Positions 1 to 20,312 of a stretch of DNA of 21,688 nt are shown piece by piece (the first letter of the stretch is position 1; the number at the start of each line of letters is the position of its first letter). Made by a program: the position numbers and the translations under genes. Source of the stretch: a virus; IMG/VR virus record IMGVR_UViG_3300029309_000393, positions 1 to 21,688 of that record. One strand, written 5' to 3'. The notes under the pieces are model-generated. The model made no database searches, was not told the origin of the DNA, and saw only the letters and a program-made list of their open reading frames with translations.

Positions 1-97
1 GGCAAACACTTTTTTTTTCTAGCGTAGAGTCTGCGTACCTTGGTTCTTTGTATAAATAATTTATAGATGGTCGTCTACCTTTTATAAATATATTCAT
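1..97 (-). CDS. Partial hypothetical protein, N-terminus only (runs off left edge)
   Basis: An open frame starts at the ATG at 97-95 and stays open to base 1 (32 codons). Its ATG overlaps the TGA of the upstream wHTH gene as ATGA, the junction used repeatedly in this operon, and a GAGG lies 8 nt before it. The visible N-terminus is basic and aromatic (MNIFIKGRRPS); no family can be recognised from so little. Caution: bases 74-86, inside the first codons, match the promoter-like 13-mer seen elsewhere on this strand, so the frame could instead be an untranslated promoter region. Confidence 0.45.
   Translation of the reverse strand, partial: MNIFIKGRRPSINYLYKEPRYADSTLEKKSVC
74..86 (-). promoter_or_regulatory. 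Candidate phage promoter motif, copy C
   Basis: The minus strand reads TATAAAAGGTAGA with ATATAT upstream, immediately downstream of the wHTH gene's stop and within the first codons of the frame that runs off the left edge. It matches the copies at 2757-2769, 9889-9901 and 14903-14915. No start codon follows within reach, so a ribosome-site explanation does not apply. Confidence 0.45.
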
Positions 98-1005
98 CTT
101 CTTTTCCTCTTCAGTTTCTTTGCGAGGTCTTTGATTATATCCATGGGTGTTCCTTCCTTCTCATCCAGCATACTCAGTACCAATGCCAGAGGATAAGTGG
201 GAAGCTTCTGTTTCTTATTCTGAAACTTCAATAACATTCTCCTGATTGTCTGCATCAATACTTTACTTGGAATCTTGTAGGACATGATCTTAGTCATTTG
301 AGTCCAATCTTTTCTGTCTGGTTGGAAGTGAGATTTATAGATTTCAAAATGTACTTCTTTGAATAACTTCATCAGTTCCATTTCATTTACTTCATTTGAC
401 ATAGAGCTATATTTATTATTATTAACTGAGTCTAGTTCTATGAGTCTAGGTTTAGTTGTCCTATCAACAACTTTTGAGTTGTCCTTTAGACAACTTGTTT
501 GGTCTTTTTTCATGTGTTTCTCCAGGTGTTTTAGTGTTTCATTTTGCTCTTGAATTTGTCGGTTAGGATCGTTGTTGAGAGCGTTTGATTTCACCTCATT
601 ATCGGATGTCAATGGATCATATAATATTCTATAGATAGATGATTTATGTTTGACATTTTGATAGAGTGGTGAGCCTTTACGAAGTCGTTTGATGTATCCC
701 CAATCCATGAGTTTCGTGATAACTCTGGAGATATTCCCTTTATTACTTTGGACTTGTCTGGCGATATAATCGTAGGTGGGAAAGCAAACTCCTGTATAAT
801 TATCAGCAAGAGAACACAGGACAGATAAGACCAGATAGGTTTGAGGTTGACGACAGATTCGTTTATCATTCAATGCTCGTCTGGGTACAACTGTAAATGG
901 ACCTCCCTGATAGATCGACACTACATCATGCTTTCCGTTGCTGAGAATCTTTCGCCTTCTTTTTTCTTCGTAATCTGTAGGTTTGTTCATGGCGAGGTTA
1001 GACAT
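94..1005 (-). CDS. Winged-helix DNA-binding protein, replication-initiator-like
   Basis: 303 aa. Residues about 37-115 read as a winged-helix domain: a helical stretch (QTYLVLSVLCSLADNY), then a turn and a likely recognition helix around 89-102 (NKGNISRVITKLMDWGYI), then a basic wing (KRLRKGSP). Residues 135-205 are a polar linker and 210-303 a helical C-terminus ending in a basic tail (KKLKRKRR). This design (N-terminal wHTH, linker, C-terminal interaction domain) is typical of phage and plasmid replication initiators such as lambda-O or DnaD-like proteins, and also of some MarR-like regulators. It is the largest gene of the left operon and overlaps its upstream neighbour by 8 nt. The initiator role is inferred from architecture; no origin iterons were recognised inside the gene. 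Confidence 0.6.
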   Translation of the reverse strand: MSNLAMNKPTDYEEKRRRKILSNGKHDVVSIYQGGPFTVVPRRALNDKRICRQPQTYLVLSVLCSLADNYTGVCFPTYDYIARQVQSNKGNISRVITKLMDWGYIKRLRKGSPLYQNVKHKSSIYRILYDPLTSDNEVKSNALNNDPNRQIQEQNETLKHLEKHMKKDQTSCLKDNSKVVDRTTKPRLIELDSVNNNKYSSMSNEVNEMELMKLFKEVHFEIYKSHFQPDRKDWTQMTKIMSYKIPSKVLMQTIRRMLLKFQNKKQKLPTYPLALVLSMLDEKEGTPMDIIKDLAKKLKRKRR

Positions 1006-1508: not shown

Positions 1509-1650
1509 GTGATTGTCCTTTATTATGACATTCATCGCAGATAACTCTATGATTGGAGGAGGGAATCATGCGAAGCTCACTAAGTATTTGATCTTTTGTT
1601 TCATAATATTTCTTGTGTTTACAAACTGTGCATTGGATATAATGTTTCAT
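1501..1650 (-). CDS. Zinc-ribbon-like microprotein (49 aa)
   Basis: Short frame from ATG 1650 to TAA 1503-1501. It has two CxxC knuckles, C7-C10 (CTVC) and C38-C41 (CDEC), separated by a 27-residue charged helical stretch (KHKKYYETKDQILSELR). This is the classic spacing of a small zinc ribbon. The start overlaps the stop of the DUF1064 gene as ATGA, and its own stop overlaps the next gene by 8 nt, so it fits exactly into the coupled operon. Such ribbons occur in phage transcription modulators and nuclease accessory proteins; the specific role is unknown. Confidence 0.75.
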   Translation of the reverse strand: MKHYIQCTVCKHKKYYETKDQILSELRMIPSSNHRVICDECHNKGQSHG

Positions 1651-1952
1651 ATTTCTTTGATGGTTACATTGTGTAGTGCTTCGGTAAGTTTCTTTTTTAA
1701 TTTATAGACTTGTGTTCTAAATCCTTTTACATCCTCATAGACAACTTGTCCGTCTTGTTTGTAGGCAAAGTCCGCCTTGTAATTACAGATAAATTTATTA
1801 TTGATTGTGATTTTAAAATTGGGTTGCAGCTCCAGGTCGGATATGATTTTAGATTTATTGAGCAGACATAACTCTAGGTAGCGGTTCGCTTCTTTCTTTG
1901 AATGAAACCGAATGTTATCGATTGTTGTAATTATATTTTTATACTTACTCAT
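1647..1952 (-). CDS. DUF1064-like PD-(D/E)XK nuclease
   Basis: 101 aa from the ATG at 1952 (MSKYKN), chosen because GAGG lies 6 nt upstream; GTG 1958 and ATG 1955 are in-frame alternatives. It shows the DUF1064 pattern: N-terminal SKYKN, a short IDNIRFHSKKEANRYLEL helix with E21, a QPNF motif (43-46), then the nuclease-like signature YKADFAY (D61) followed by VVYEDVKG (D74-x-K76) and a Lys-rich terminal helix. The D...DxK spacing fits a PD-(D/E)XK fold. Members are common in phage early regions and are thought to act on branched or damaged DNA, possibly as Holliday-junction-type endonucleases. The family call is solid by pattern; the substrate is inferred. Confidence 0.8.
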   Translation of the reverse strand: MSKYKNIITTIDNIRFHSKKEANRYLELCLLNKSKIISDLELQPNFKITINNKFICNYKADFAYKQDGQVVYEDVKGFRTQVYKLKKKLTEALHNVTIKEI

Positions 1953-2085
1953 CATCACCCTCGTATAGCTGATAGTGATATCTGTATTCCAAAGGCACTA
2001 AAATTTCTTTTCCTTTGTGATCTTTGATAGGCACACCATTTTCATCTACAATTATTCCCTGATTATTTATAATCTGTTTCATCAT
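1945..2085 (-). CDS. Hypothetical microprotein (46 aa)
   Basis: Frame from ATG 2085 (or the in-frame ATG 2082) to TAA 1947-1945. The start overlaps the upstream stop as ATGA and the end overlaps the DUF1064 gene by 8 nt, so it occupies the exact gap between two coupled genes. The sequence has a strand-rich look (KQIINNQGIIVDENGVPI) with an acidic C-terminus (YEGDDE), suggesting a small beta-rich adaptor. No family recognised. Confidence 0.68.
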   Translation of the reverse strand: MMKQIINNQGIIVDENGVPIKDHKGKEILVPLEYRYHYQLYEGDDE

Positions 2086-2303
2086 GTATCGCTCTGTGGT
2101 CGTCCATATTTATCGTATTTATGCTTATAATCCATGAAGGTATCGCACTTTACAGCGACTAATTTTTCTTCCCTGTCCTTAAACTGCTTGTATAATTGTG
2201 CGACAACAGTTTCACATTCATTGTTGTAAACCCTACCCAATCTTTTGTGATACAACTGACCATGCAATTCCACCCAAAAGGTTATGATAAGTGGTTCGAT
2301 CAT
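2082..2303 (-). CDS. Hypothetical small protein (73 aa)
   Basis: Not recognised. The sequence is of mixed charge, with a hydrophobic N-terminal strand (MIEPLIITFWVELHGQ), a central helix (VVAQLYKQFKDREEKLVAV) and a basic, polar tail rich in Tyr and Lys (DYKHKYDKYGRPQ). The start overlaps the RHH gene's stop as ATGA, and its stop overlaps the next start, consistent with coupled translation. No metal-binding or membrane motif. Confidence 0.68.
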   Translation of the reverse strand: MIEPLIITFWVELHGQLYHKRLGRVYNNECETVVAQLYKQFKDREEKLVAVKCDTFMDYKHKYDKYGRPQSDT

Positions 2304-2458
2304 TGACCTATAACTTTCTTAAATACATTCGAGGTTTTCATTCCCTCGGTAACAAAGTGATCGACAAGTCTGTTCATCGATATTCTCTGTGTCTTTGATT
2401 GTTGTTTTAGTTTTTCGTAAGTCTTTTCATCAATACGAATGTTTAATTGTCGCATCAT
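2300..2458 (-). CDS. Ribbon-helix-helix (Arc/CopG-type) DNA-binding protein
   Basis: 52 aa from ATG 2458, preceded by a near-perfect AAGGAGG seven nt upstream, the strongest ribosome site of the left operon. The sequence has the RHH plan: a short N-terminal strand with alternating residues (RQLNIRID, about 3-10), helix A (EKTYEKLKQQSK), a turn, and helix B (SMNRLVDHFVTEGM, about 28-40). RHH proteins bind operators as dimers through the strand. Being second in an operon that begins at a divergent control region, it is a natural candidate for an autoregulator of that region or a repressor/Arc-like switch protein. The target is not known. Confidence 0.8.
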   Translation of the reverse strand: MMRQLNIRIDEKTYEKLKQQSKTQRISMNRLVDHFVTEGMKTSNVFKKVIGQ

Positions 2459-2704: not shown

Positions 2705-2743
2705 ATATTTCCACCAATAAAAGGTAGGCATAACAGGAAACAT
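2681..2743 (-). CDS. Possible leader peptide (20 codons) overlapping the hairpin
   Basis: A frame from ATG 2743 to TAA 2683-2681 encodes a very aromatic 20-mer containing TFYWWKY, with adjacent Trp codons. Its GENL codons coincide with the 5' arm of the hairpin and its stop lies in the loop. No convincing ribosome site precedes the ATG (a GAGG is about 17 nt away), which argues against efficient translation. It is listed because leader peptides with such codon clusters overlap attenuator arms in known systems; it may be chance. Confidence 0.25.
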   Translation of the reverse strand: MFPVMPTFYWWKYGENLFLL

Positions 2744-2756
2744 AAAAAAAGTTACA

Positions 2757-2769
2757 TCTACCTCTTGTA
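2757..2769 (-). promoter_or_regulatory. Candidate phage promoter motif, copy D
   Basis: The minus strand reads TACAAGAGGTAGA, matching the copies at 74-86, 9889-9901 and 14903-14915 (consensus TAYAARRGGTAGA). It lies about 115 nt upstream of the first gene of the left operon, pointing into it, just before the hairpin leader. A weaker plus-strand relative (AATAAAAGGTAGG, two mismatches) is at 2716-2728. By analogy with single-subunit phage RNA polymerase promoters, whose TATA run is followed by GG, transcription could begin at the GG at 2762-2761. No ATG or gene start is adjacent, so it cannot be explained as a ribosome site. Confidence 0.5.
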
Positions 2770-2798
2770 AAGATAGCAAAAATATATTAGATTGATAC
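2765..2798 (+). promoter_or_regulatory. Candidate promoter for the plus-strand operon
   Basis: TTGTAA (2765-2770) is followed after 17 nt by TAGATT (2788-2793), a plausible sigma-70-type pair. The downstream half, ATATTAGATTGATAC (2784-2798), recurs with one change at 4080-4094, again upstream of a plus-strand gene and again 18-19 nt after a TTG box. The first gene starts at 2846. The -35 box overlaps the minus-strand motif at 2757-2769, so the two directions would compete. Confidence 0.5.
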
Positions 2799-2814
2799 TA
2801 GGTATTTTTACCTA
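2799..2814. promoter_or_regulatory. Operator-like palindrome
   Basis: TAGGTA and TACCTA form perfect 6-bp arms around TTTT, beginning one base after the shared promoter motif and ending 31 bases before the first plus-strand ORF. It sits where a repressor would block transcription start or elongation. The RHH protein and the LexA-like domain encoded nearby are candidate binders, but nothing in the sequence links them directly. It is a poor fit for a terminator, as the stem is AT-rich and no T-run follows. Confidence 0.4.
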
Positions 2815-2845
2815 ATGGCAATTAAGCCAAAAGAAAGGAAACATA

Positions 2846-2995
2846 ATGAATAATCAATTACTACATACAATGTTTGATGCTCAAATGGAGATATTAAATG
2901 ATTTATATTTCAGCGAACGTCTAATGTTACCATTGAAAACAAAAGCTGATATTTATTTAGCAAAAGAATTAAATTTAACTATAGGGGGTAAATAA
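2846..2995 (+). CDS. Hypothetical microprotein (49 aa), first gene of plus operon
   Basis: Frame from ATG 2846 to TAA 2993-2995, preceded by AAAGGA 6 nt upstream. The product is short, helical and amphipathic (MNNQLLHTMFDAQMEILNDL, then PLKTKADIYLAKELNL). No metal-binding, membrane or clear helix-turn-helix motif. It is the first cistron after the divergent control region and is followed after 3 nt by the zinc protein, so it is almost certainly co-transcribed with the recombinase. Function unknown. Confidence 0.65.
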   Translation: MNNQLLHTMFDAQMEILNDLYFSERLMLPLKTKADIYLAKELNLTIGGK

Positions 2996-2998
2996 ATA

Positions 2999-3289
2999 AT
3001 GGCAACAAAAAGAAAAATACAAATAGAAGTAGTGGGATATTTGTGGGTGTGTCCACATGACCACGAAACTTTTATGCCCCATATGACTCAATGGTTTCAT
3101 TGTGATCGTTGTAACAAAAAATATAAAACATCGGATTGTCAACTAAATGAATGGTATAGACACGAACAAATCTATGACGACTACGACAATGCAATACAAA
3201 CTTATGAAGATAAACTGTATCTAAAAAGTATGGAAGAATGGCTTAAAAAACCTAAACTAAAAATTAAAAATATTTCGGAGGAAACATAA
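2999..3289 (+). CDS. Putative zinc-finger protein (96 aa)
   Basis: The first half carries possible metal ligands: C18, H20 and H22 (CPHDH), H28, H34-C35xxC38 (HCDRC) and C47. This resembles a rubredoxin-like or zinc-ribbon knuckle. The second half is a charged helix (NAIQTYEDKLYLKSMEEWL) with a basic tail (KKPKLKIK). The TAA stop shares its last base with the ATG of the serine recombinase (TAATG), implying coupled translation and possibly a working partnership, such as a DNA-binding accessory factor. Family not recognised. Confidence 0.7.
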   Translation: MATKRKIQIEVVGYLWVCPHDHETFMPHMTQWFHCDRCNKKYKTSDCQLNEWYRHEQIYDDYDNAIQTYEDKLYLKSMEEWLKKPKLKIKNISEET

Positions 3290-4050
3290 TGAGTATATTT
3301 AAAACAACAGAAGGCAAGGAGCATACGGGTTTGTATGTTGGTTATCTTCGAGTGTCCACCGAGGATCAGAATTGTACTCGTCAAATATTTAATATTAAAA
3401 AATATCTAAATGGTGGAAAGCATACCCTTAAATTTTTTACTGAAGAACCTATGTCGGGTGCAACCGACCCGTATAAAAGGGAAGAGTTGATGAAGGCAGT
3501 TGACTATTGTCGTAAACATAAAGCAACACTTGTCTTTGCAGACCTTGAGAGATTGTGTCGTAAAATGTGGATGACACTTAGATTCTTGGATGAAGTTATA
3601 AAACAAAACAAGATAAACTTTATTGTCTGTAATGATCCAACCATATCAGAAGATCCTATGCGACTTCAGATGAAGGCAATGTTTTCAGAATGGGAACGCC
3701 AGAGAATCTCTGAACGAACCAAAGAAACACTTGACTCATATCAAGCACAGATAAAAGAGAAGGGATTTTTTACTTCAAAAGAGGGCAAGAAAATCAGACG
3801 TTTGGGTGTGCATAGTTTAATGGATAAAGCTAGGCAGAAGTCAGGCGAGGTAGCAAGTGCAGAAGCAGATCGTTTTGCTAAAAGTATTTACTACTATCTA
3901 AACGATGCTTACACTCAATGTTCTTCTCTTAATGAGATGAGTATATTTCTTAATGATCGTAAAGTTAAAACACCCAGAGGAGGGAGCTGGTATCCTTCGA
4001 GTGTTAAGAATATGTTGAAGCGATTGAAGATAGGAAATTATGATGACTAA
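3289..4050 (+). CDS. Serine recombinase (resolvase/invertase-type catalytic domain)
   Basis: 253 aa. The catalytic domain begins at GYLRVSTEDQ, with the nucleophile Ser23 in the canonical R-V-S context. MSGATDP (55-61) and LERLCR (R88, R91) match the conserved arginine block, and SEWERQRISERTKE starts the long E helix. The C-terminal part (LNEMSIFLNDRKVKTPRGG, then a Trp and SSVKNML) matches the small helix-turn-helix recombinase domain in which TPRGG.W precedes the last helix. The protein is longer than a simple resolvase (about 185 aa) but much shorter than large serine integrases (450 aa or more), as it lacks the zinc ribbon and coiled coil. It may integrate, invert or resolve DNA; no att site or invertible segment could be identified here. 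Confidence 0.9.
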   Translation: MSIFKTTEGKEHTGLYVGYLRVSTEDQNCTRQIFNIKKYLNGGKHTLKFFTEEPMSGATDPYKREELMKAVDYCRKHKATLVFADLERLCRKMWMTLRFLDEVIKQNKINFIVCNDPTISEDPMRLQMKAMFSEWERQRISERTKETLDSYQAQIKEKGFFTSKEGKKIRRLGVHSLMDKARQKSGEVASAEADRFAKSIYYYLNDAYTQCSSLNEMSIFLNDRKVKTPRGGSWYPSSVKNMLKRLKIGNYDD

Positions 4051-4121: not shown

Positions 4122-4448
4122 ATGATTAGTGAAAAGTATTTACAAGCTCTCATTAAAGCAGAAAAGAAATCTAAGAGTCAACAAAATGACGAGGACTATC
4201 GCAAGTATGGTAAGTTTATGCGATCCGCTTCAAGGATTACCATACCCTTAACAAATCTTAAAAACCTTAAAACTGCTCATGAGATGTTACAACTATTGGT
4301 CGATGAAATCGGTGAGATTATTAAAAGCAATCATACAGTTTTTGAGAAGATATTTCTTGCTGGTCATTCTGCAACCACTTGTTCGCAACATCTTAAACAA
4401 GCTGCTGATCCAAAGAATAACGGACAACATTTTAAAGGTACTCGCTGA
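4122..4448 (+). CDS. Hypothetical protein (108 aa)
   Basis: Start ATG 4122, with AAAGGTGG seven nt upstream. The protein is Lys-rich and helical, without membrane segments. The central helix (NLKTAHEMLQLLVDEIGEII) could dimerise, and the C-terminal part (HSATTCSQHLKQAADPKNNG) is polar. I do not recognise a family. It opens the second part of the plus operon after the internal promoter and precedes a membrane protein and the recombination genes. Confidence 0.65.
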   Translation: MISEKYLQALIKAEKKSKSQQNDEDYRKYGKFMRSASRITIPLTNLKNLKTAHEMLQLLVDEIGEIIKSNHTVFEKIFLAGHSATTCSQHLKQAADPKNNGQHFKGTR

Positions 4449-4533: not shown

Positions 4534-4833
4534 ATGTTAGACTACAACAACAAACCCAAACCCTTACATTCAAGTAAGTCGCATAATATATATTCCGACA
4601 AGTTAGGAAAAAGATCTATATATAGAAGTTTTACTGAATGGAAAAATAAATCTTTAAATGATTTACAATACTACCTTTTAACAATTAAAAAAACAACAAT
4701 ATTAGAAAATCTATCTCTTTGTTTTTCTGCGGTATTGTTAGTTACTTTTTTTTATTTCTTACTAGTTTTTTTTTGTGCCATTGATGATCAATGTGCAGCA
4801 ATCTATATGGAGGTAGCTCATGCCAACTCCTAA
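4534..4833 (+). CDS. Small single-pass membrane protein (99 aa)
   Basis: Start ATG 4534, preceded by GGAAG. Residues 1-55 are basic and polar, with several Tyr (SKSHNIYSDKLGKRSIYRSF); residues about 60-83 form one very hydrophobic segment rich in Phe and Leu; a short tail of 16 residues follows. By the positive-inside rule the N-terminus would face the cytoplasm. The last 14 nt overlap the start of the nuclease gene, and the AGGAGG-like site of that nuclease lies inside this gene. Function unknown; a superinfection or host-membrane role is possible but unsupported. Confidence 0.55.
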   Translation: MLDYNNKPKPLHSSKSHNIYSDKLGKRSIYRSFTEWKNKSLNDLQYYLLTIKKTTILENLSLCFSAVLLVTFFYFLLVFFCAIDDQCAAIYMEVAHANS

Positions 4834-5770
4834 AAATAAATTTAGTAAAGACGGATTCGAAGTCGGCGCATCTAAAGTTCCCTTGATAGTAATAGGACAA
4901 GACGACTTCGGAAATACAAGAGAACAACTACGTCAAAACTTTGTTGAGATAAGAAACAATCCAGATGTGGTTCGTTTGGAAAGTAAACAAAATAAAAATG
5001 CCAAGGATCGAGGTAACTATCTGGAAGATGGAATTGCTCATTGGGTATCCGATCAACTCGATTCTCTGTGTGCTGATCCTTACTCTGTTACATTTCGTAA
5101 ACCCATTGATGCGTATCGTTTGTCTAAATATAAAATGGCAGCATCCCTCGATGGTGTATTAACAATAGACGGAAAACCAATACAGTATGACGATCCACAA
5201 ACGGGAAAGACTTTTACATTATCTGGCAAGGGTGTGTGTGAAATAAAAACTCAAGGTTATAACGACCATGTAACCTACGATCACATTCTACAACTCCAAG
5301 CTCAGATGTTAGTATCAGGATTTAAGTGGGGTGTTATCGGACACCTTGGTCCTCGTTTGAAAATGCAGATGTATGTCTTTGAATCTAATAAACAAATACA
5401 CAAAAAAATTTTAGAACGAGTTAAAGACTTTTGGCGAAGAGTAGAAAAGGACACGCCTTATCCAGTTATAGTTGAGCCAACAGAGAAAGTTTATTCTGAT
5501 TGGTCGAATGATGACAAAGGTTTAAGCAAACTTACCAACGACTATGATCTTGCCAAGGATGAAATAGAACGCTGGACAACTACAAAAGATCAACTAGCCA
5601 ACGCTATTAAATCTATTCTGAAACAAGAGAACACAAGTTATGTAAAGATCAGAGAGAAACAAATAGCGTGTGAATTAATAACTCGCAAGGCAACAGTTGA
5701 AAGAATTGTTCCAGCAAAACCCGCAAGTCAATATGAAAAACTTACAGTAAAGGAGATAAGTAATGAATGA
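4820..5770 (+). CDS. YqaJ/lambda-exonuclease-family PD-(D/E)XK exonuclease
   Basis: 316 aa. It shows the family signatures in order: RGNYLEDGIAHW with E69, AASLDGV with D111, VCEIKTQ with E141-x-K143, and HILQLQAQM with Q158/Q160, a motif typical of viral YqaJ recombinases. This is a processive double-strand exonuclease type that makes single-stranded tails for an annealing partner. The C-terminal third is a helical extension (KDEIERWTTTKDQLANAIKS). A strong GGAGG precedes the ATG at 4820, and the stop overlaps the annealing-protein start by 8 nt, the usual exonuclease-annealase pairing. It likely serves replication, repair or concatemer formation of the phage genome. Confidence 0.9.
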   Translation: MPTPKNKFSKDGFEVGASKVPLIVIGQDDFGNTREQLRQNFVEIRNNPDVVRLESKQNKNAKDRGNYLEDGIAHWVSDQLDSLCADPYSVTFRKPIDAYRLSKYKMAASLDGVLTIDGKPIQYDDPQTGKTFTLSGKGVCEIKTQGYNDHVTYDHILQLQAQMLVSGFKWGVIGHLGPRLKMQMYVFESNKQIHKKILERVKDFWRRVEKDTPYPVIVEPTEKVYSDWSNDDKGLSKLTNDYDLAKDEIERWTTTKDQLANAIKSILKQENTSYVKIREKQIACELITRKATVERIVPAKPASQYEKLTVKEISNE

Positions 5771-6548
5771 ATTAGCAAATCAATTACAACAAGTAATATT
5801 AAAAGGAGATCTTAGAACCTTATCGGATCAAGATAAATTAATCTATTATAAAAATGTGTGTGATAGTATAGGTATCAATCCATTAACCAAACCTTTTGAT
5901 TACATTGTTCTGAATAATAAACAAACTTTGTATGCAACTAAAAATTGTACCGATCAATTACGATCACTTCATAAGATTAGTATTACAATCAAAGAACAAA
6001 AAATAGATAATGGTTTGTTAACAGTTGTTGTGGAAGGATCGGATCGATCTGGACGACAAGATGCGGATATGGGTTTCGCAAATGTGCAAGGACTTCGAGG
6101 AGAAGCTCTCGGTAATGCCATGCTCAAAGCAGTAACAAAAGCAAAAAGAAGATTGACGCTATCAATTTGTGGACTCGGTGGATTTTTAGATGAAACCGAG
6201 GTAGAAGATCTCCCACAGAGAGCCGTCAGTAAACAAAAGCAAGGTAAGATGACTCCTAATACTCAAGATGTATTAAAGGTTATTGACGAGTCTAATCCTC
6301 CCATCTATACGCTAGTGCTACCAGGCAACAAAGAAAAGGATCATGACTCTTTAGAAACACTTGCATTTACATTCAATGACCTGATGTTGGAGATAATTAA
6401 TCATCCTGATAAAGATAAAAAGGATAAAGTTAAAACAATCGAGAAAGCATTTAAGGTTAATGAAAAGGTTATGACACAATTAAAAGATGCAAACAAAAAA
6501 ACCTACGATGAACTAACAACTAAGTTTGAGAATTTTAAAAATGGATAA
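5763..6548 (+). CDS. RecT/Bet-like single-strand annealing protein
   Basis: 261 aa. The N-terminal half matches phage annealing-type proteins: SIGINPLTKPFDYI (36-48, the NP..KPF/Y motif of the RecT/Bet superfamily), a beta stretch with TLYATKNCTDQLR, and a long conserved segment GEALGNAMLKAVTKAKRR (113-130) followed by LTLSICGLG. The C-terminal third (about 155-261) is charged, helical and probably variable, as in other annealases. It would coat and anneal single strands exposed by the adjacent YqaJ nuclease. AAAGGAG precedes the ATG. The family name is assigned from motif memory and context rather than a profile search, so a related annealase family (Sak-type) remains possible. Confidence 0.75.
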   Translation: MNELANQLQQVILKGDLRTLSDQDKLIYYKNVCDSIGINPLTKPFDYIVLNNKQTLYATKNCTDQLRSLHKISITIKEQKIDNGLLTVVVEGSDRSGRQDADMGFANVQGLRGEALGNAMLKAVTKAKRRLTLSICGLGGFLDETEVEDLPQRAVSKQKQGKMTPNTQDVLKVIDESNPPIYTLVLPGNKEKDHDSLETLAFTFNDLMLEIINHPDKDKKDKVKTIEKAFKVNEKVMTQLKDANKKTYDELTTKFENFKNG

Positions 6549-6756
6549 AAATTTTACACCACTTTCTCAGAAGGTTCTTGCTTTCATAAAAGAATATATG
6601 GAACGAGAAAAGTTTGCACCCTCACAAATTGAAATCAAAGAACATTTCAAACATAAAACTTTATCGGCAGTTCAACTCTCACTTAAAAGATTGGAGCAGT
6701 TACAAAAGATTGAACGTGTCCGAGGGAAGGGGAGATCAATCAGACTTCTTGATTAA
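6541..6756 (+). CDS. LexA-type winged-helix DNA-binding domain, no protease
   Basis: 71 aa from ATG 6541; a TTG 15 nt earlier is less likely because the ATG overlaps the annealase stop by 8 nt. The whole protein aligns with the LexA N-terminal domain: LSQKVLAFIKEYM, FAPSQIEIKEHF (the P.R.EIA-like turn), LSAVQLSLKRLEQLQKIERV (recognition helix and wing) and a final RGKGRSIRLL like LexA's SRGIRLL. The S24 peptidase half (normally residues about 75-200) is absent, so self-cleavage is impossible. It may be a repressor or LexA-box competitor, or it may regulate this operon. Being last and coupled to the recombination genes suggests a link to DNA damage or replication control. Confidence 0.8.
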   Translation: MDKNFTPLSQKVLAFIKEYMEREKFAPSQIEIKEHFKHKTLSAVQLSLKRLEQLQKIERVRGKGRSIRLLD

Positions 6757-9232: not shown

Positions 9233-9877
9233 TTATCTTTTATATCCCTCAATGTTCTCATCACTAGGTAATGATTGCATTGTAGCCAATGTTTTAATAC
9301 TTCCATCTTTATTATATTCTGTAACAAACAATGCTTTTAACTTATCAAGAGTATCACAATCACTTATTGCCTTTACTATTTTATCAGCTTCTGTTCTAAC
9401 AAATGCTCTATATGTAGATACTGCACTTGGTATTGTTTTACTACTATCTTCAACTTTTCTAGTAACCATCCAATCTGTAGGTGCTAATAAATTAGCTGCT
9501 TGTTTTTGTATTTGTTCTGTATATATAGTTTTTAATCCTTTACTTGCTACATCTCCTACATCTTTACCTTCTGGAATAACACCATCAGTTTTGTTTTGAG
9601 AAGTATATAAAGTATCAGCTATCTCCTTGTCTTTTTTATTAATAGTTTCTGTAACTGTGCCTTTAGAATCATCTACTTTATAAGATACAGTTGTCGGAGT
9701 TTCAAATCTATTATCTACCATTTCTCCAGGTATAAACTTATAAACACCTACAGCTTTTAATTGTGATTCACTCCAATGCTTAAATATACTTTTAGGATGT
9801 ACAATTTCTCCTTCGGTAATAGACTCATTACCTTTAGTTAATTTTATTAATTTACTGTCTTTAACTATCGCCCACAT
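9233..9877 (-). CDS. Tail-fibre-assembly-like / DUF4376-like protein
   Basis: 214 aa. The N-terminal MWAIVKDSKLIKL and EGEIVHPKSIFKHWSESQLKA form the start typical of phage fibre-associated and assembly proteins. Later, LLAPTDWMVTRKVEDSSKTI followed by STYRAFVRTEADKI matches the LL..TDW...R....... YR..VR core shared by DUF4376 and tail-fibre assembly chaperones. The position directly after the adhesin genes agrees with a fibre chaperone or minor fibre protein. It could instead be a virion structural component. Its ribosome site lies inside the repeated motif at 9889-9901. Confidence 0.7.
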   Translation of the reverse strand: MWAIVKDSKLIKLTKGNESITEGEIVHPKSIFKHWSESQLKAVGVYKFIPGEMVDNRFETPTTVSYKVDDSKGTVTETINKKDKEIADTLYTSQNKTDGVIPEGKDVGDVASKGLKTIYTEQIQKQAANLLAPTDWMVTRKVEDSSKTIPSAVSTYRAFVRTEADKIVKAISDCDTLDKLKALFVTEYNKDGSIKTLATMQSLPSDENIEGYKR

Positions 9878-9917: not shown

Positions 9918-12290
9918 TTACCTAGCAGTAACTGGACTTACCCCATCTCCAAGGAAGGGATGTTCTGCCCAGCACCAATACAGATAATCATAACTACCAT
10001 TATAATTTGAATTAGTTCCTCTGCATTTAAAACCATTAGATAAAAAATCTAAATCATTTCCAGATGTAGCCTCAGCTTGAGTTAAATCTGGATAAAGAAC
10101 ATTGTCACAAGGGTTGAATACACTTCTTTTATTATCCCACATAATCCAATTGTTACCTATAGTATATCCTTTGATTATCAAAAGCGATGGCTTAAATCCT
10201 GTCTGAATATATGGACCATCTGCATTATTATTTCCACTATACCGTCCAAACGCACTAAAACCATCTACACTATGCCAACAATAGGCAACATAATTATTAC
10301 TACTTTCATTGACCTCATAACCAGTACCGCCAACAATAAAAGCATCAGATGTTGGTGTTCCCCACATAGATGCAGTTCCATATCCATCATCACTATTTAA
10401 TTTTTGATATGTTGTAATGTTTCCAAAACCAGTATGCCAACATCTCCAATTAGTTGAGTTTCCTTTATCTTTAATCCATATTACTTCTGGTGCAGCAGAT
10501 AAACCATGTCCAATTGAACCTGAACTACCAGTTCCAGTATATTCTACAATACTAAATCCAGCTGTCGTATTAGCTTGAACAGTTGAGGTAATTGAACCAT
10601 CAGTATTACTTGCAGTAGTTCCTCCGTTTGCTACCCAGTTCCAGGATACATAGCTGTTACCTGAATTATTTATTGCTGTATTATCACCAATAGCTTGACC
10701 ACCTTTTAAAAATTTACTTAATGAACCATCTCTAAATGCCAGAGCGTTTGTAAGATTTGGAACTAATCTGTTAAATACGCCATTACTACTATCATTAGAG
10801 TGATGACTTCCATCAGCATCACGAACTTTCATCCACACAAATCCACTTACACCTTTATCTGTGGTTGGTAGGTTGTCTTGTTGTAAAGCCACAAAGCCAG
10901 TTGGTGGGGTGTAAGTAAAAGATTTTTGACCGAAGTTAGCTGTTACAATGTCTGTTGAACCAGTACCTGCATCAGTAAGACTAAATCTATAAAAACCAGC
11001 AGTTGTTGATTTTGCAGAAATAATACTCTGCCCACCAGTTCCAGCACTAGGATTTGATGAATTTTGAAAAGTTCCATTTTTTGAAAAATATAATTTATCA
11101 TTATCTAAATCAACAGCTATCCCAATAATATCACTTGTAGTATAGGTATTACCAAAACTAACACTTACTGAGTTATTAGTTATATTACCATTTACTGAAT
11201 AATATCCATAAGAATCAGATAACTTTCCCGCATATTCAGCGGTAGAAGCATATCTATCACTACCCATTATTCCAAGCATAACTCCAGCACTTGATATTGA
11301 GTCTATAGTAGCTTCCATATAATACTTTCCACTTACCATTTTTAGTGTAGATAGCCCTCCTGTCATTGCAGAGGAGGTTGGTAACGTAACTTTTAAATTA
11401 CCTTCAGAAAATGTACTTGATATATTTGGACCATTAACTGCCAATGTCGCATGATTCTGTGTCGGACTATCGGTGGTCTTGTCTCCAGCTACAAGGTTTG
11501 AAACACTAAAATCATTTGTATTTCCACTGGTGTCGTCACCTAAATTACTGGATGATGCAAACTGCAATCTGAACCCATTGGTTCCATAGGTAATACCACT
11601 TAATGTCTTAGGGATCCAACGCCCCGAACTTGTATCGGTGACGCCAAAGGTTGATGGTGTTAATGCTGTGCCATCTACTATGTTAACCTCTGCAAAATAA
11701 TAACTAGCATTTTCTGAACCCGAACTACCATAATCACCACCTAAGTTCATTGGATTAGAAGTGTTGTTTACTTCAAATTGGAAATTTTGGGAAGGGTATG
11801 TTTCTGTTGAAAAACTTGTAATTTGATTCCCATCAATGTACATTTTTATTCTATTTGATGCTGTTGCCTGAGTTGTATCAACTGCTATTAATAGGTGATA
11901 AAATTTTGAAGTATCCTCAAATGTTCTATTAGTAATTAAATTATAGTATGAAGAAGTAGCATCTGTAAATTTAATAGTGTTATCGGTATGGAACATTAAA
12001 AACTCACCAGCAGTTCCTCCAGAAGGTGATGTTGTTAAAATTAAATTTCTTGCACTTCCAAGAGCAACTCTTTTTATCCAAACACTAAATGTCCACGTTT
12101 TTCTATTTCCAGCACTACTTGGTGTTCTTGCTAGTCTTGGGTTATCAGCTCTATTAAATATCAAACTATTAGCAATGGTACCACTATCTGTAAAAGGTAC
12201 AAACTTACCGACTCTCTGCCCCCCGCCGTTTCCTGTATACGTAGAAACAAAGAACTGTGTTTCGCCATTTGGTATTGTTGGTGTTGCCAT
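9918..12290 (-). CDS. Large adhesin / tail-fibre protein with LamG- and SPRY-like domains
   Basis: 790 aa, Ser/Thr/Gly/Asn-rich. After an N-terminal spacer, residues about 64-230 read as a LamG-type jelly roll (WTFSVWIKR, then YHLLIAVDTTQATASNRIKM and YIDGNQITSF). Next, a SPRY-like region ends in IIGIAVDLDNDKLYFSKNG, around residue 400. From about 555 onward lies a different module, WNWVANGG, HGLSAAPEVIWIKDKG, YVAYCWHSVDGFSAFGRYSG, DFLSNGFKCRG and YWCWAEHPFLG, repeatedly met in marine-phage fibre proteins. It likely binds host surface sugars or proteins and extends from the virion. It is a paralogue of the 431-aa gene upstream, sharing the LamG and SPRY parts. Ribosome site GGGAG lies inside the upstream gene's last codons. 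Confidence 0.85.
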   Translation of the reverse strand: MATPTIPNGETQFFVSTYTGNGGGQRVGKFVPFTDSGTIANSLIFNRADNPRLARTPSSAGNRKTWTFSVWIKRVALGSARNLILTTSPSGGTAGEFLMFHTDNTIKFTDATSSYYNLITNRTFEDTSKFYHLLIAVDTTQATASNRIKMYIDGNQITSFSTETYPSQNFQFEVNNTSNPMNLGGDYGSSGSENASYYFAEVNIVDGTALTPSTFGVTDTSSGRWIPKTLSGITYGTNGFRLQFASSSNLGDDTSGNTNDFSVSNLVAGDKTTDSPTQNHATLAVNGPNISSTFSEGNLKVTLPTSSAMTGGLSTLKMVSGKYYMEATIDSISSAGVMLGIMGSDRYASTAEYAGKLSDSYGYYSVNGNITNNSVSVSFGNTYTTSDIIGIAVDLDNDKLYFSKNGTFQNSSNPSAGTGGQSIISAKSTTAGFYRFSLTDAGTGSTDIVTANFGQKSFTYTPPTGFVALQQDNLPTTDKGVSGFVWMKVRDADGSHHSNDSSNGVFNRLVPNLTNALAFRDGSLSKFLKGGQAIGDNTAINNSGNSYVSWNWVANGGTTASNTDGSITSTVQANTTAGFSIVEYTGTGSSGSIGHGLSAAPEVIWIKDKGNSTNWRCWHTGFGNITTYQKLNSDDGYGTASMWGTPTSDAFIVGGTGYEVNESSNNYVAYCWHSVDGFSAFGRYSGNNNADGPYIQTGFKPSLLIIKGYTIGNNWIMWDNKRSVFNPCDNVLYPDLTQAEATSGNDLDFLSNGFKCRGTNSNYNGSYDYLYWCWAEHPFLGDGVSPVTAR

Positions 12291-12291
12291 A

Positions 12292-13587
12292 TTAACTCCC
12301 TAAATTCTTTGTATTGATTGCATTATCATCAGTAATGCCAGAGGGTGTTTGAGTCCATTGATTAGATGCAAATCTTCCTGTTGCACTACACCCGTTAAGA
12401 TGTTGAGTTAATGGCATTATAAAATCCACATCACTAAAATCAAATGAGTGTGTGCTTTGTAATGTTCCATTTCTATAAAATTTTAAATTATTTGAAGTAT
12501 TATCTGTATCTATCCATACACCTATAACATCATTATTTTCAAAAGCATCTCCAACACTACCATCACCACTACTTGAATAATATTTACCAAGATAATCTCC
12601 ATACCCAAACCATTTTGGGGTTGCTGGATTGTTATTTTGATTAACCCCCATTTCAGAAGAACCCCAACCAAAGATTAATTGTATAGTATGGGAATGAACT
12701 ACACCTTCATAATAAAATATACCAGAGTTAGGAGGTATTCCAATCGTACCTAATATTGATTTATAAGTAGCTCCAGAGGTAGTAACTGTTAAATTTCCAT
12801 CACTCATTGTTGTACTTCCTGTTGGTCTTAAAACATTCCAAGTACAATGATTATTCGTAGGACTTTCTCCTACCATTTGATCGTGTGCTGCAAGTCCACT
12901 TGTTGTAAAATCATTACCATTACCTGATTCATCATCTCCTAAGTCAGCACTATCTCTGCCATCAATTTTAAAACCATTACTTCCGTAACTACCACTATAT
13001 TCTTTGGGAATCCAAATACCACTATCGTTTGTTTCTCCAAAGAATTCAGGTCCATAACTAATACCATCTAAATAATGTATTTCTGCTGCATACCCATCAT
13101 AATAATTAGTACCTCCATATAACCTAAAAAGTCGTAATTGCAATCCACTTGTCCAAACACTTGCATCAGCATTTAATGATGGATAACTCTCTGTACTAAA
13201 ACTTGTTTCTCTTTGTCCATTTACATAAAGTCTAATCCTTTCAGAAGAAACTGCATTAGTAGAATCAACAGTTAAAACAAAATGGCACCAGGCTGATGGG
13301 TCTCGGAAAACTCTGTTTGTAACTAAAGATGTACCACCAAACAAAAAAACTCGTATTGTATCATCTGAAAAGAATATCAAAGGAACATCTTGTTGATATG
13401 ACCAAATATCTTGTCTTGAACCTAATAAACTTCTTTTTAACCAAAGTGATATTGTAAATTGTTTTTGATTTCCAGCTCCAGAAAAGTCTTTATACATATA
13501 AGCTGAATCATCATCATTAAACCTAATTGATTGGTCTATAGAGTATGTGCTAACTCCTGATTTATTCCATAATTCACTACTAAACAT
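12292..13587 (-). CDS. LamG/SPRY adhesin, shorter paralogue
   Basis: 431 aa. The region about 37-190 is a LamG-like fold (FTISLWLKRSLLGSRQ, WCHFVLTVDSTNAVSSERIR and YVNGQRETSFSTESYPSLN), aligned with the larger adhesin's WTFSVWIKR and YIDGNQITSFSTETYPS. Then comes a SPRY-like part (FYYEGVVHSHTIQLIFGWGS, VIGVWIDTDNTSNNLKFYRNG). It lacks the long C-terminal module of its neighbour and ends shortly after the SPRY. Together the two suggest a gene duplication that gave separate receptor modules. It starts 3 nt after the fibre gene and overlaps no other gene. Role in receptor binding is inferred. Confidence 0.83.
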   Translation of the reverse strand: MFSSELWNKSGVSTYSIDQSIRFNDDDSAYMYKDFSGAGNQKQFTISLWLKRSLLGSRQDIWSYQQDVPLIFFSDDTIRVFLFGGTSLVTNRVFRDPSAWCHFVLTVDSTNAVSSERIRLYVNGQRETSFSTESYPSLNADASVWTSGLQLRLFRLYGGTNYYDGYAAEIHYLDGISYGPEFFGETNDSGIWIPKEYSGSYGSNGFKIDGRDSADLGDDESGNGNDFTTSGLAAHDQMVGESPTNNHCTWNVLRPTGSTTMSDGNLTVTTSGATYKSILGTIGIPPNSGIFYYEGVVHSHTIQLIFGWGSSEMGVNQNNNPATPKWFGYGDYLGKYYSSSGDGSVGDAFENNDVIGVWIDTDNTSNNLKFYRNGTLQSTHSFDFSDVDFIMPLTQHLNGCSATGRFASNQWTQTPSGITDDNAINTKNLGS

Positions 13588-17928: not shown

Positions 17929-18492
17929 TTAATTTTCCTGACCTACTTCTAATGTTTTTTGATTAGCTGCTTTTACTTGCTCTGATGTTTGTTTTATACT
18001 CTTGACAACTGCGGGAGCTTTCTTGGCTGCTTGTCCTCCTATATTACTAACACCTAAAAATTCTCCAGCAACAAATCCTGATTTAAAATCTTTCTTTTTT
18101 TGATCTGATATATTTAAATCATCAATAAAGTTATCAAAGTAACCTTTATAAAACTGTGATCCATAATTTTCTTTTGATAATGTTTCAAAGGTATTTGCAA
18201 ATGTTTCTAGTTTCTTACCATCTTCTGCTCCAACAGATTTAGCAATACTTACAAACAAACTTGCAAGATCAGTAGGAAATCCTAATGTTGCTCCAAAAGC
18301 TCCAGCACCCATACTTGCAGTTGTTCCCGCCACTCGTTCTAAACCCTCTCCGATACCTTCTAATAATGTAGGTTCAACATAAGGTCTAATATCAACCAAA
18401 CCTTGTTCGTCTTGATAATACTCAAGATCAACACCTGACGATCTCATTCTTCTACTATTTTCAATATAATCAAAAATATCTTTAGTCATCAT
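17929..18492 (-). CDS. Virion/ejection-associated protein (187 aa)
   Basis: After an acidic N-terminus (DIFDYIENSRRMRSSGVDLE), residues about 50-85 are Gly/Ala-rich and hydrophobic (TTASMGAGAFGATLGF, DLASLFVSIAKSVG), a likely membrane-interacting stretch. The rest is helical and charged. The start overlaps the upstream stop by 4 nt, with GGAAGG before it, and it lies between two core proteins, so it is probably a small ejection or core protein. I do not recognise a named family. It could be the split-off N-terminus of a larger core protein, since the 994-aa gene starts 3 nt later. Confidence 0.7.
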   Translation of the reverse strand: MMTKDIFDYIENSRRMRSSGVDLEYYQDEQGLVDIRPYVEPTLLEGIGEGLERVAGTTASMGAGAFGATLGFPTDLASLFVSIAKSVGAEDGKKLETFANTFETLSKENYGSQFYKGYFDNFIDDLNISDQKKKDFKSGFVAGEFLGVSNIGGQAAKKAPAVVKSIKQTSEQVKAANQKTLEVGQEN

Positions 18493-20312
18493 TTACCTTC
18501 CAAATATTTAATTGTATTTGATAGTATGCGATCGTATCTTGCATCCTTTGTTTCATCATAAAATCTTTTCTTAAATAGATCTTTGTTATCTCTTCTGTAA
18601 CTAAGCATTTCTCTCAGTTGTTCTATTTCATCTAACTCCATTATACTTTCTAAAAATTCTTGATTTATTTTGCCTGATCGGTTGTTTTTCTTTGCTTTAG
18701 CAAATGCTTTTTTCAATTCGGTATATTGAAGTCTAAGATCTTGTTGTGTATCGTCATCAACAATTTTATTAATCTTTTTTTCGACTTCACCTATTTGATC
18801 TCGTATAAAAGTGGCAGCATCAAAACTCTCTCCAAGTTCTGTTTTTCTTCTTAACTCTGCTAATGCTTTTTTTCTCATTGCTCTTAGCAGTTGATTTTGT
18901 TTAAAATTTGGATGATCAACGTCAATATTTTCTTGTTCAATAATACCAAATAATTGTTCTGTATTTGAAAGCTCTAATTCAATATTACTTTTTTCATAAG
19001 TATTTAAATCTTTTTCAAGTCCTTCTATGTCTTCTGTGCTTAGTAAAAACCTATTATCATCAATAATTTTAATAGTTAATGCTCCATCGCCAAGTTGTCT
19101 TTTAAGTCTGCTTAAAGTTTGTGCATCACTAACTCTTCTTACACCCATAAACTTTTCTCTGTTTTGTTTAATATCGATAAGTCTTGTGTCGCTTGAATCT
19201 AACGATTGTGCTATTTTAAGATTATCATCGTAAAGTTTAGGATCGTTTTTATCTATGGCAATCTTCATATTCGCAAGTGCATTGTTCATTGCTGTTTCGT
19301 TTTGGATTTTATCTATATCGTTTTCATCTTCTTCAAGTTGTAGTTCATCTCGTCTTGCTGATCGTAGGTTAGAAACTAATTTAATTTTATCCTCGGCTGT
19401 AAACATTTTTAGTAAAGCATCAATTCGAGCATTACCTGTTGCTTTATTTTTAATAATGCTTTTCGAGTATTCTCTTGCTAAACCCGCTTGTAAAGTATAA
19501 CTAATAATTTTGCTTTCATATTGATTCATAAATTCTTTATCAAGTGTTTCATTTAATTTAGTTATTTGTTGAGCAGAATACTCTCCTCTGGTTATTGCTT
19601 CTGTCTGCGATTCAATGATAGTGTTTCTTCTATGTGCTACAAGATCACTCTCAATTTGACTTTGTGTTTTAGCGGGATCAAGTAGAATGTTATCTATCTT
19701 AGTAGGTATGTTTGATTGAATATTACTAAGTATTACGGCAGCAAGACCTTGTTGTTTTTTTGTTTCTGCATCAATAAAGTCGCTCATATAACTTTTAAAA
19801 TAACCGCCTGTTGTTTGCGACAATGTGCCTTTTAGTTTAATATGATCTGTTGGACTTACATCTTTTAAAATATCAGAGTAACCGAGTGATATAGAATCTA
19901 AACCATCAGCCACCTCTTGCGGATCTAAATCTTGTGTTTTTGCCTGACTTATAAATTGTGCATAATCTCTTGTCGCTTGTAATTCTATTTCTGACATTAC
20001 ACTTTGAAATGCTGTGCTTCTAGCAGCTTTGCCTTTTAATCCATACCCAAGTCTTTTTGTAGGATCTTCTCCTGTCTGCGATGCTTTTTCTAACTCCTCC
20101 ATAGTGATTGGATTTGTCGCACCATACATCTCCCCTTCTTCTACCACCTTCTCAGCCATTTGATCATAGAAAAAACCTGACATAGTATTAAGTAACTGTG
20201 TGATCTGACTCTGGCCTACTGCTTCTTGTTCTAATATACCTATTTCGGTTGCAGCACTTGGTGTGTACCTCGGACTTAATATAGATCTATTTAATCGTAC
20301 TCTTTCAGCCAT
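18489..20312 (-). CDS. Internal core protein (T7 gp15-like position)
   Basis: 607 aa, almost entirely helical and charged. The N-terminus (MAERVRLNRSILSPRYTPSA) leads to a region with LLNTMSGFFYDQMAEKVVEE and ATNPITMEELE, then many helices (RRKTELGESFDAATFIRDQI, QQDLRLQYTELKKAFAKAKK) with coiled-coil periodicity. In size, order and composition it parallels T7 gp15, the middle ejection protein. GGAGG precedes the ATG, which shares one base with the upstream TAA (TAATG). The family name is not certain from sequence alone. Confidence 0.75.
   Translation of the reverse strand: MAERVRLNRSILSPRYTPSAATEIGILEQEAVGQSQITQLLNTMSGFFYDQMAEKVVEEGEMYGATNPITMEELEKASQTGEDPTKRLGYGLKGKAARSTAFQSVMSEIELQATRDYAQFISQAKTQDLDPQEVADGLDSISLGYSDILKDVSPTDHIKLKGTLSQTTGGYFKSYMSDFIDAETKKQQGLAAVILSNIQSNIPTKIDNILLDPAKTQSQIESDLVAHRRNTIIESQTEAITRGEYSAQQITKLNETLDKEFMNQYESKIISYTLQAGLAREYSKSIIKNKATGNARIDALLKMFTAEDKIKLVSNLRSARRDELQLEEDENDIDKIQNETAMNNALANMKIAIDKNDPKLYDDNLKIAQSLDSSDTRLIDIKQNREKFMGVRRVSDAQTLSRLKRQLGDGALTIKIIDDNRFLLSTEDIEGLEKDLNTYEKSNIELELSNTEQLFGIIEQENIDVDHPNFKQNQLLRAMRKKALAELRRKTELGESFDAATFIRDQIGEVEKKINKIVDDDTQQDLRLQYTELKKAFAKAKKNNRSGKINQEFLESIMELDEIEQLREMLSYRRDNKDLFKKRFYDETKDARYDRILSNTIKYLEGK

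Follow-up and report, generated by a model that had tools for sequence, protein, structure and literature searches.

A conserved small serine recombinase with two exchangeable alleles in MEP301-related podoviruses and its tentative role in genome resolution

The 21,688-base IMG/VR virus record analyzed here in full (the window) carries a gene for a mid-size serine recombinase (SR), directly preceded by a small ORF with CxxC motifs, which raises the question of what such an enzyme does for a podovirus and whether the two gene products belong together. The assignment to a T7-type podovirus in the preliminary description of this DNA was borne out by the T7-type virion genes found in the window, whose products are internal virion proteins, a tail tubular protein and a fibre that matches T7-tail weakly. 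As judged from sequence comparisons, the window is a podovirus fragment akin to the OM43 phage MEP301, which is among the best-matching isolates by the virion protein and the exonuclease of the window, and which is the nearest phage by terminase, with 65% identity as measured via the window relative G001. The SR-YqaJ gene order, virion genes and terminase genes are common to MEP301, the window and its relatives; the excerpted text of the MEP301 paper defines MEP301-type podoviruses by a gene order in common and at least 40% of genes (PMC8024684). A search for terminal repeats on seven records and an Rfam search gave nothing useful, and a promoter/terminator scan returned matches at a level not above chance.

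The SR gene (3289..4050, plus strand) encodes a type-A protein of 253 aa, in which a catalytic domain (residues ~15-123) is followed by a long helix (124-158) and a C-terminal helical domain (~176-246). The Pfam Resolvase family PF00239 matches residues 17-154 with 98.6 bits (cut-off 23.3), the best PHROG is phrog_125 'DNA invertase' (E 5e-31), and R21, S23, R64, R88 and R91, which we take to be the resolvase active-site residues, belong to the columns that do not vary in 20 of 20 aligned relatives, so that the intact catalytic motif reported earlier for the 253-aa enzyme is upheld. Equally well founded was the statement that the C-terminal domains of large serine integrases are absent, given the protein length and a match to PF07508 'Recombinase' (residues 206-245; 22.2 bits, cut-off 21.1) that extends over only 40 of 102 positions; a match to HTH_62 falls below the Pfam cut-off. 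SR is thus apparently a small, active serine recombinase without the large-integrase domains. The further idea that its DNA-binding function had been lost was not supported. In an AlphaFold2 model built from 20 relatives (mean pLDDT 77.1, pTM 0.49), helices 201-210, 214-223 and 236-246 form blocks of pLDDT ~80-91 and the linker at ~170-190 has blocks of pLDDT 54-63; SR is hence predicted to keep a C-terminal helical domain of its own (residues ~200-246), confident in the model and matching the start of PF07508. The structure comparison placed serine recombinases at the top, with Z 14.3 for the TP901-1 catalytic domain and 13.2 for Sin. When the model is aligned to gamma-delta/Hin (2gm4) or gamma-delta (1gdt), the match reaches residue 247 with an rmsd of 10-11 Å, a value that says nothing on domain placement.

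Comparison across relatives indicates that SR is a real, conserved and probably functional gene. Scanning with the YqaJ-type protein yielded 22 contigs, 18 of which carry SR, of type A in 11 contigs and of type B in seven, and the remaining four (L089, L095, L099 and L100) end short of its position, so that SR is present in 18 of the 18 contigs reaching it. A PF00239 search matched nine of 12 records, the three others (G002, G009 and G010) showing no sequence over the SR position, and six of seven in a second set, where the SR of the unmatched record (G027) is truncated by the end of the contig; every record having any SR has only one. Estimates of dN/dS are low, with 0.06-0.13 in seven type-A pairs and 0.05-0.26 in six type-B pairs. 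The type-B SR is ~34% identical to the type-A SR of the window. In a YqaJ tree, which comprises 30 contigs (12 with type A and 18 with type B) and has some weak forks, the SR type switches at least four times, and alleles A and B have replaced each other at least this often, cleanly from start to stop. L005 is of type A, yet its final codons resemble the type-B tail. The C-terminal domains of A and B are 39-44% identical to each other and their catalytic domains 25-34%, while for the SRs of the window and L061 against 11 other SRs the corresponding values are 17-31% and 21-34%. We infer that both alleles bind one target, at the same or a similar site; common ancestry or domain exchange is a simple alternative explanation for the conserved C-terminal domain. 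A and B are sisters in the SR tree (98/94), the deep forks of which are weak. A literature search turned up no report of such an exchange for the SRs of these phages, which does not prove that none exists.

Upstream of SR, a conserved leader between divergent operons (2707..2845, plus strand; promoter assigned by comparison with relatives) opens a slot for small genes, which was tabulated for 21 of 25 loci used as script input; L074, L075, L076 and L078 were dropped, as the start string was not found. In the window, the slot contains the 96-aa CxxC ORF (2999..3289, plus strand), which overlaps the SR gene by one base through TAATG in ...ACATAATGAG, in agreement with the coupling first described. 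However, TAATG-type junctions are also common to unrelated SR neighbours, and the coupling is therefore no sign of an SR-CxxC pair. The ORF, which presumably binds zinc by virtue of its motifs, had no family above cut-off in PHROG and Pfam searches, and its single-sequence structure model is poor (mean pLDDT 62). It occurs in three of the 21 tabulated slots (the window, L002 and L065), and tblastn of the loci agrees, finding it solely there and in L001, which is the window's own copy. In the window and L002 it precedes a type-A SR and in L065 a type-B SR; the window and L065 have the CxxC ORF and the initiation region in common, and divergence starts after the ATG of SR. The proposal that this zinc protein serves as partner of SR thus fails, since patchy presence and pairing with either of two alleles only ~34% identical rule out an obligate partner. 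The CxxC ORF appears instead to be swappable cargo, one of several interchangeable small ORFs and an early accessory gene unrelated to SR.

As to the function of SR itself, we tentatively favour, at somewhat less than an even probability, a stand-alone enzyme of the resolvase/invertase kind with the phage's own DNA as its substrate, most likely resolving dimers or multimers. Recombination-driven replication would make genome dimers or multimers and SR, which we infer to be a resolvase using one site per genome, would recombine the copies of this site and in this way resolve the multimers. Part of the early recombination operon, the SR gene adjoins a YqaJ-type nuclease; a Holliday-junction-type nuclease and a replication initiator are encoded opposite it. 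On the plus strand, SR is followed by ORFs of 108 aa (4122..4448; not found in L005 and G001) and 99 aa (4534..4833), a RecE-like/YqaJ-type exonuclease (4820..5770; phrog_434, with a match to the MEP301 YqaJ protein), a candidate ssDNA-annealing protein assigned by position only (5763..6548; an ERF-family gene lies there in MEP301) and a 76-aa LexA-type DNA-binding protein (6526..6756; PF01726, 38.9 bits). The minus strand carries an O/DnaD-like replication initiation protein (94..1005; PHROG and Pfam searches), the Holliday junction resolvase-type nuclease (1647..1958; phrog_190) and a 52-aa Arc-like repressor (2300..2458; phrog_3180, 39.8 bits). The conserved protein encoded by 5763-6548 has no PHROG match and no Pfam match above cut-off, and may be an unrecognised annealing protein. 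Several phages have SRs of like size and layout, as do non-mobilizable plasmids with lengths of 6 to 41 kb. Intramolecular resolution is favoured because of the small size of the enzyme, its plasmid relatives, the recombination and replication neighbours, the single SR per record and the lack of a second-site pair. Several observations count against it. The plasmid relatives are only ~30% identical to the window SR, and ParA (PF13614) was found in none of 10 records, so that a plasmid stage draws no support from there; small SRs with HTH are known from phage-plasmids, as stated in the excerpted source (PMC8026635). A temperate lifestyle would be consistent with the operator-like palindrome described below, the Arc-like repressor and the LexA-type protein. 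Moreover, if the enzyme had its site adjacent to the gene, clean allele swaps that leave the flanking DNA behind would be unexpected, except where A and B share the site.

No recombination site of SR was identified, nor one of the res type, which in resolvase systems is usually located next to the gene. Immediately downstream of the inferred early promoter, the leader contains the palindrome TAGGTA-TTTT-TACCTA (2799..2814), whose half-sites covary in relatives (TAGRYA-N4-TRYCTA). Copies lie at 2799-2814 in the window, at 19813 and 25247 in G001, at 9320 and 15785 in G006 and at 18166 and 24364 in G020, the second copy, which covaries in part, lying at a distance of 5.4-6.5 kb within a 169-aa ORF close to the terminase gene (G001, G006 and G003). 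Between clades, the half-sites change on both sides (TAGGTA, TAGGCA and TAGACA), independently of the SR type. As near-identical type-B SRs (G001; L069/G020, 97%) differ in half-site, TAGGTA versus TAGGCA, and the window and G001 share one half-site with different SRs, the palindrome was ruled out as the crossover site of SR. It is probably an operator, with the Arc-like (2300-2458) or the LexA-type (6526-6756) protein as candidate ligand. Another conserved element is a stretch of ~90 bp, nearly invariant in DNA, within the type-B SR gene (L061:6173-6895, around codons 79-109 in the L061-L074 comparison). It holds even in L074, whose synonymous sites elsewhere are saturated, and 0 of 2000 codon shuffles were as low over 30 codons. 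This block may be either an exchange patch or an embedded site; type-A SR genes showed no consistent invariant block.

The main rival to genome resolution, which we regard as unlikely though the best placed of the alternatives, is that SR is a small serine integrase that integrates the phage at a host site and excises it again. Allele swapping is common among integrases and, together with the repressor-like genes and the operator-like palindrome at the early promoter, speaks for such a role. Integration is retained as a rival in view of the small resolvase-like integrases of filamentous Ralstonia phages, the excerpted reports describing phiRSM ORF14 and phiRs551 ORF13 (196 aa) as recombinases required for integration (PMC3816273, PMC5608472). 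On the other side, SR swaps bring no flanking attP-like DNA, SR is devoid of the large-integrase domains, and no tRNA gene lies within the window, where the sole match in a search for a tRNA-like attP was a T-arm-like stretch with one mismatch inside a fibre gene. A tyrosine integrase was likewise found in none of 10 records. Prophages, for which a search had been suggested in the preliminary description, were absent among the matches listed when 84,980 genomes, one for each species, were scanned with the type-A alignment; these matches, at least four, are all 25-29% identical over ~140-150 residues and come from gut-type MAGs.

Improbable in our estimate is a cassette system, in which two diverged alleles that keep a common DNA target are rivals for a single slot and SR itself helps to shuffle the adjacent small early genes. 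Between leader and SR, 0-3 cargo ORFs are present and both occupied and empty forms exist: the leader runs directly into SR in four of 21 loci (L063, L064, L070 and L071), a scan of the L035 slot gave no ATG-started ORF of 40 aa, and 13 of 21 slots hold small ORFs other than CxxC. Several cargo boundaries share the GGAAACATAATG initiation region, and four cargo genes are found next to either SR type, the CxxC ORF being one of them. Relatives of the 49-aa ORF of the window (2846..2995, plus strand) precede SR in L002 and L010 (type A) and in L081 (type B), a 75-aa ORF is found in L004 and L005 (A) and in L065 (B), and a 96-aa MFIKDL/MYIKDL ORF in L003 (A) and in L067 and L069 (B). However, beyond the ribosome-binding site and ATG the boundary sequences vary between loci, and short-homology recombination by the YqaJ-type system with selection for working start sites would suffice to explain the exchanges. 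Nine cargo ORFs compared with PHROG gave no known-function family and one weak match to an unknown-function family; the slot (2846-3289 in the window) and its counterparts in relatives are a possible source of counter-defence genes.

No greater probability is given to the view that SR is inactive or solely regulatory, since its catalytic residues are invariant, its dN/dS is low and small SRs are not known to need PF07508. This had been suspected for ORF4 of MEP301, whose resolvase domain was noted by the authors and which, according to the excerpted text, is maybe a non-functional serine recombinase as PF07508 is missing (PMC8024684). Adjacent to each other in the window (9918-13587) are two SPRY-domain fibre-type genes, strongly variable among close relatives, and the first of them (9918-12290) also carries DUF7483. 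In line with the initial report of no inverted repeats at the fibre genes, no convincing flanking pair was found in the 21.7-kb window; the sole exact 16-nt inverted pair listed has one arm within the SR gene and the other within the gene for a 994-aa virion protein, and longer inverted pairs have 70-89% matches and are scattered across the window. Least probable of all is inversion of a fibre or other segment by SR, which would require a pair of inverted crossover sites around the segment and for which the PHROG family name and the variable SPRY fibre genes can be cited, but against which stand this lack of good repeats around the fibres of the 21.7-kb fragment and the location of labelled fibre genes in annotated records on one strand with other late genes.

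Phages of the MEP301 type infect streamlined ocean bacteria, and a conserved recombinase in such phages, with no other integrase found, poses the question of whether a hidden persistent stage exists or genome resolution is needed. The allele swaps, across which the C-terminal domain stays conserved, amount to a natural experiment on recombinase specificity. The slot next to the promoter provides a catalogue of small early genes with possible counter-defence candidates.

Among known systems, large serine integrases have a complete recombinase domain and a zinc-ribbon/coiled-coil domain after the catalytic domain, and the window SR has the catalytic domain fold in common with Bxb1, phiC31 and TP901-1 but lacks most of the former domain and the latter. 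The Bcep22-like podovirus JC1, as described in the excerpted source, integrates via a 551-aa SR with attP 41 bp upstream and thus employs a different enzyme class (PMC9144972). The phiRSM and phiRs551 integrases are described as small and resolvase-like, as is the window SR; in these phages integration was shown and an att core lies beside the gene, whereas no such core was found in the window. Size and layout of the window SR recur in recombinases of non-mobilizable plasmids of Moritella, Methylobacterium, Synechococcus and Microvirga (~28-31% identical). SRs of the phages Cellulophaga Calle/phi38:1, Shewanella 1/4, Vibrio 277E43-1 and phAPEC8 also have ~220-250 aa with a catalytic N-terminus and a short C-terminal domain, but are ~28-31% identical and have other gene neighbours. 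Closest in arrangement is MEP301 ORF4 (gp04), a 229-aa 'recombinase family protein' with a resolvase domain, located as in the window directly before YqaJ (gp05) and followed by ERF (gp06); it is 29% identical to the window SR over a 182-column alignment, has no PF07508 match and falls outside the A+B group in the SR tree. The window SR belongs to an already known kind of enzyme, and in MEP301 ORF4 a more distant SR had already been published from the corresponding position.
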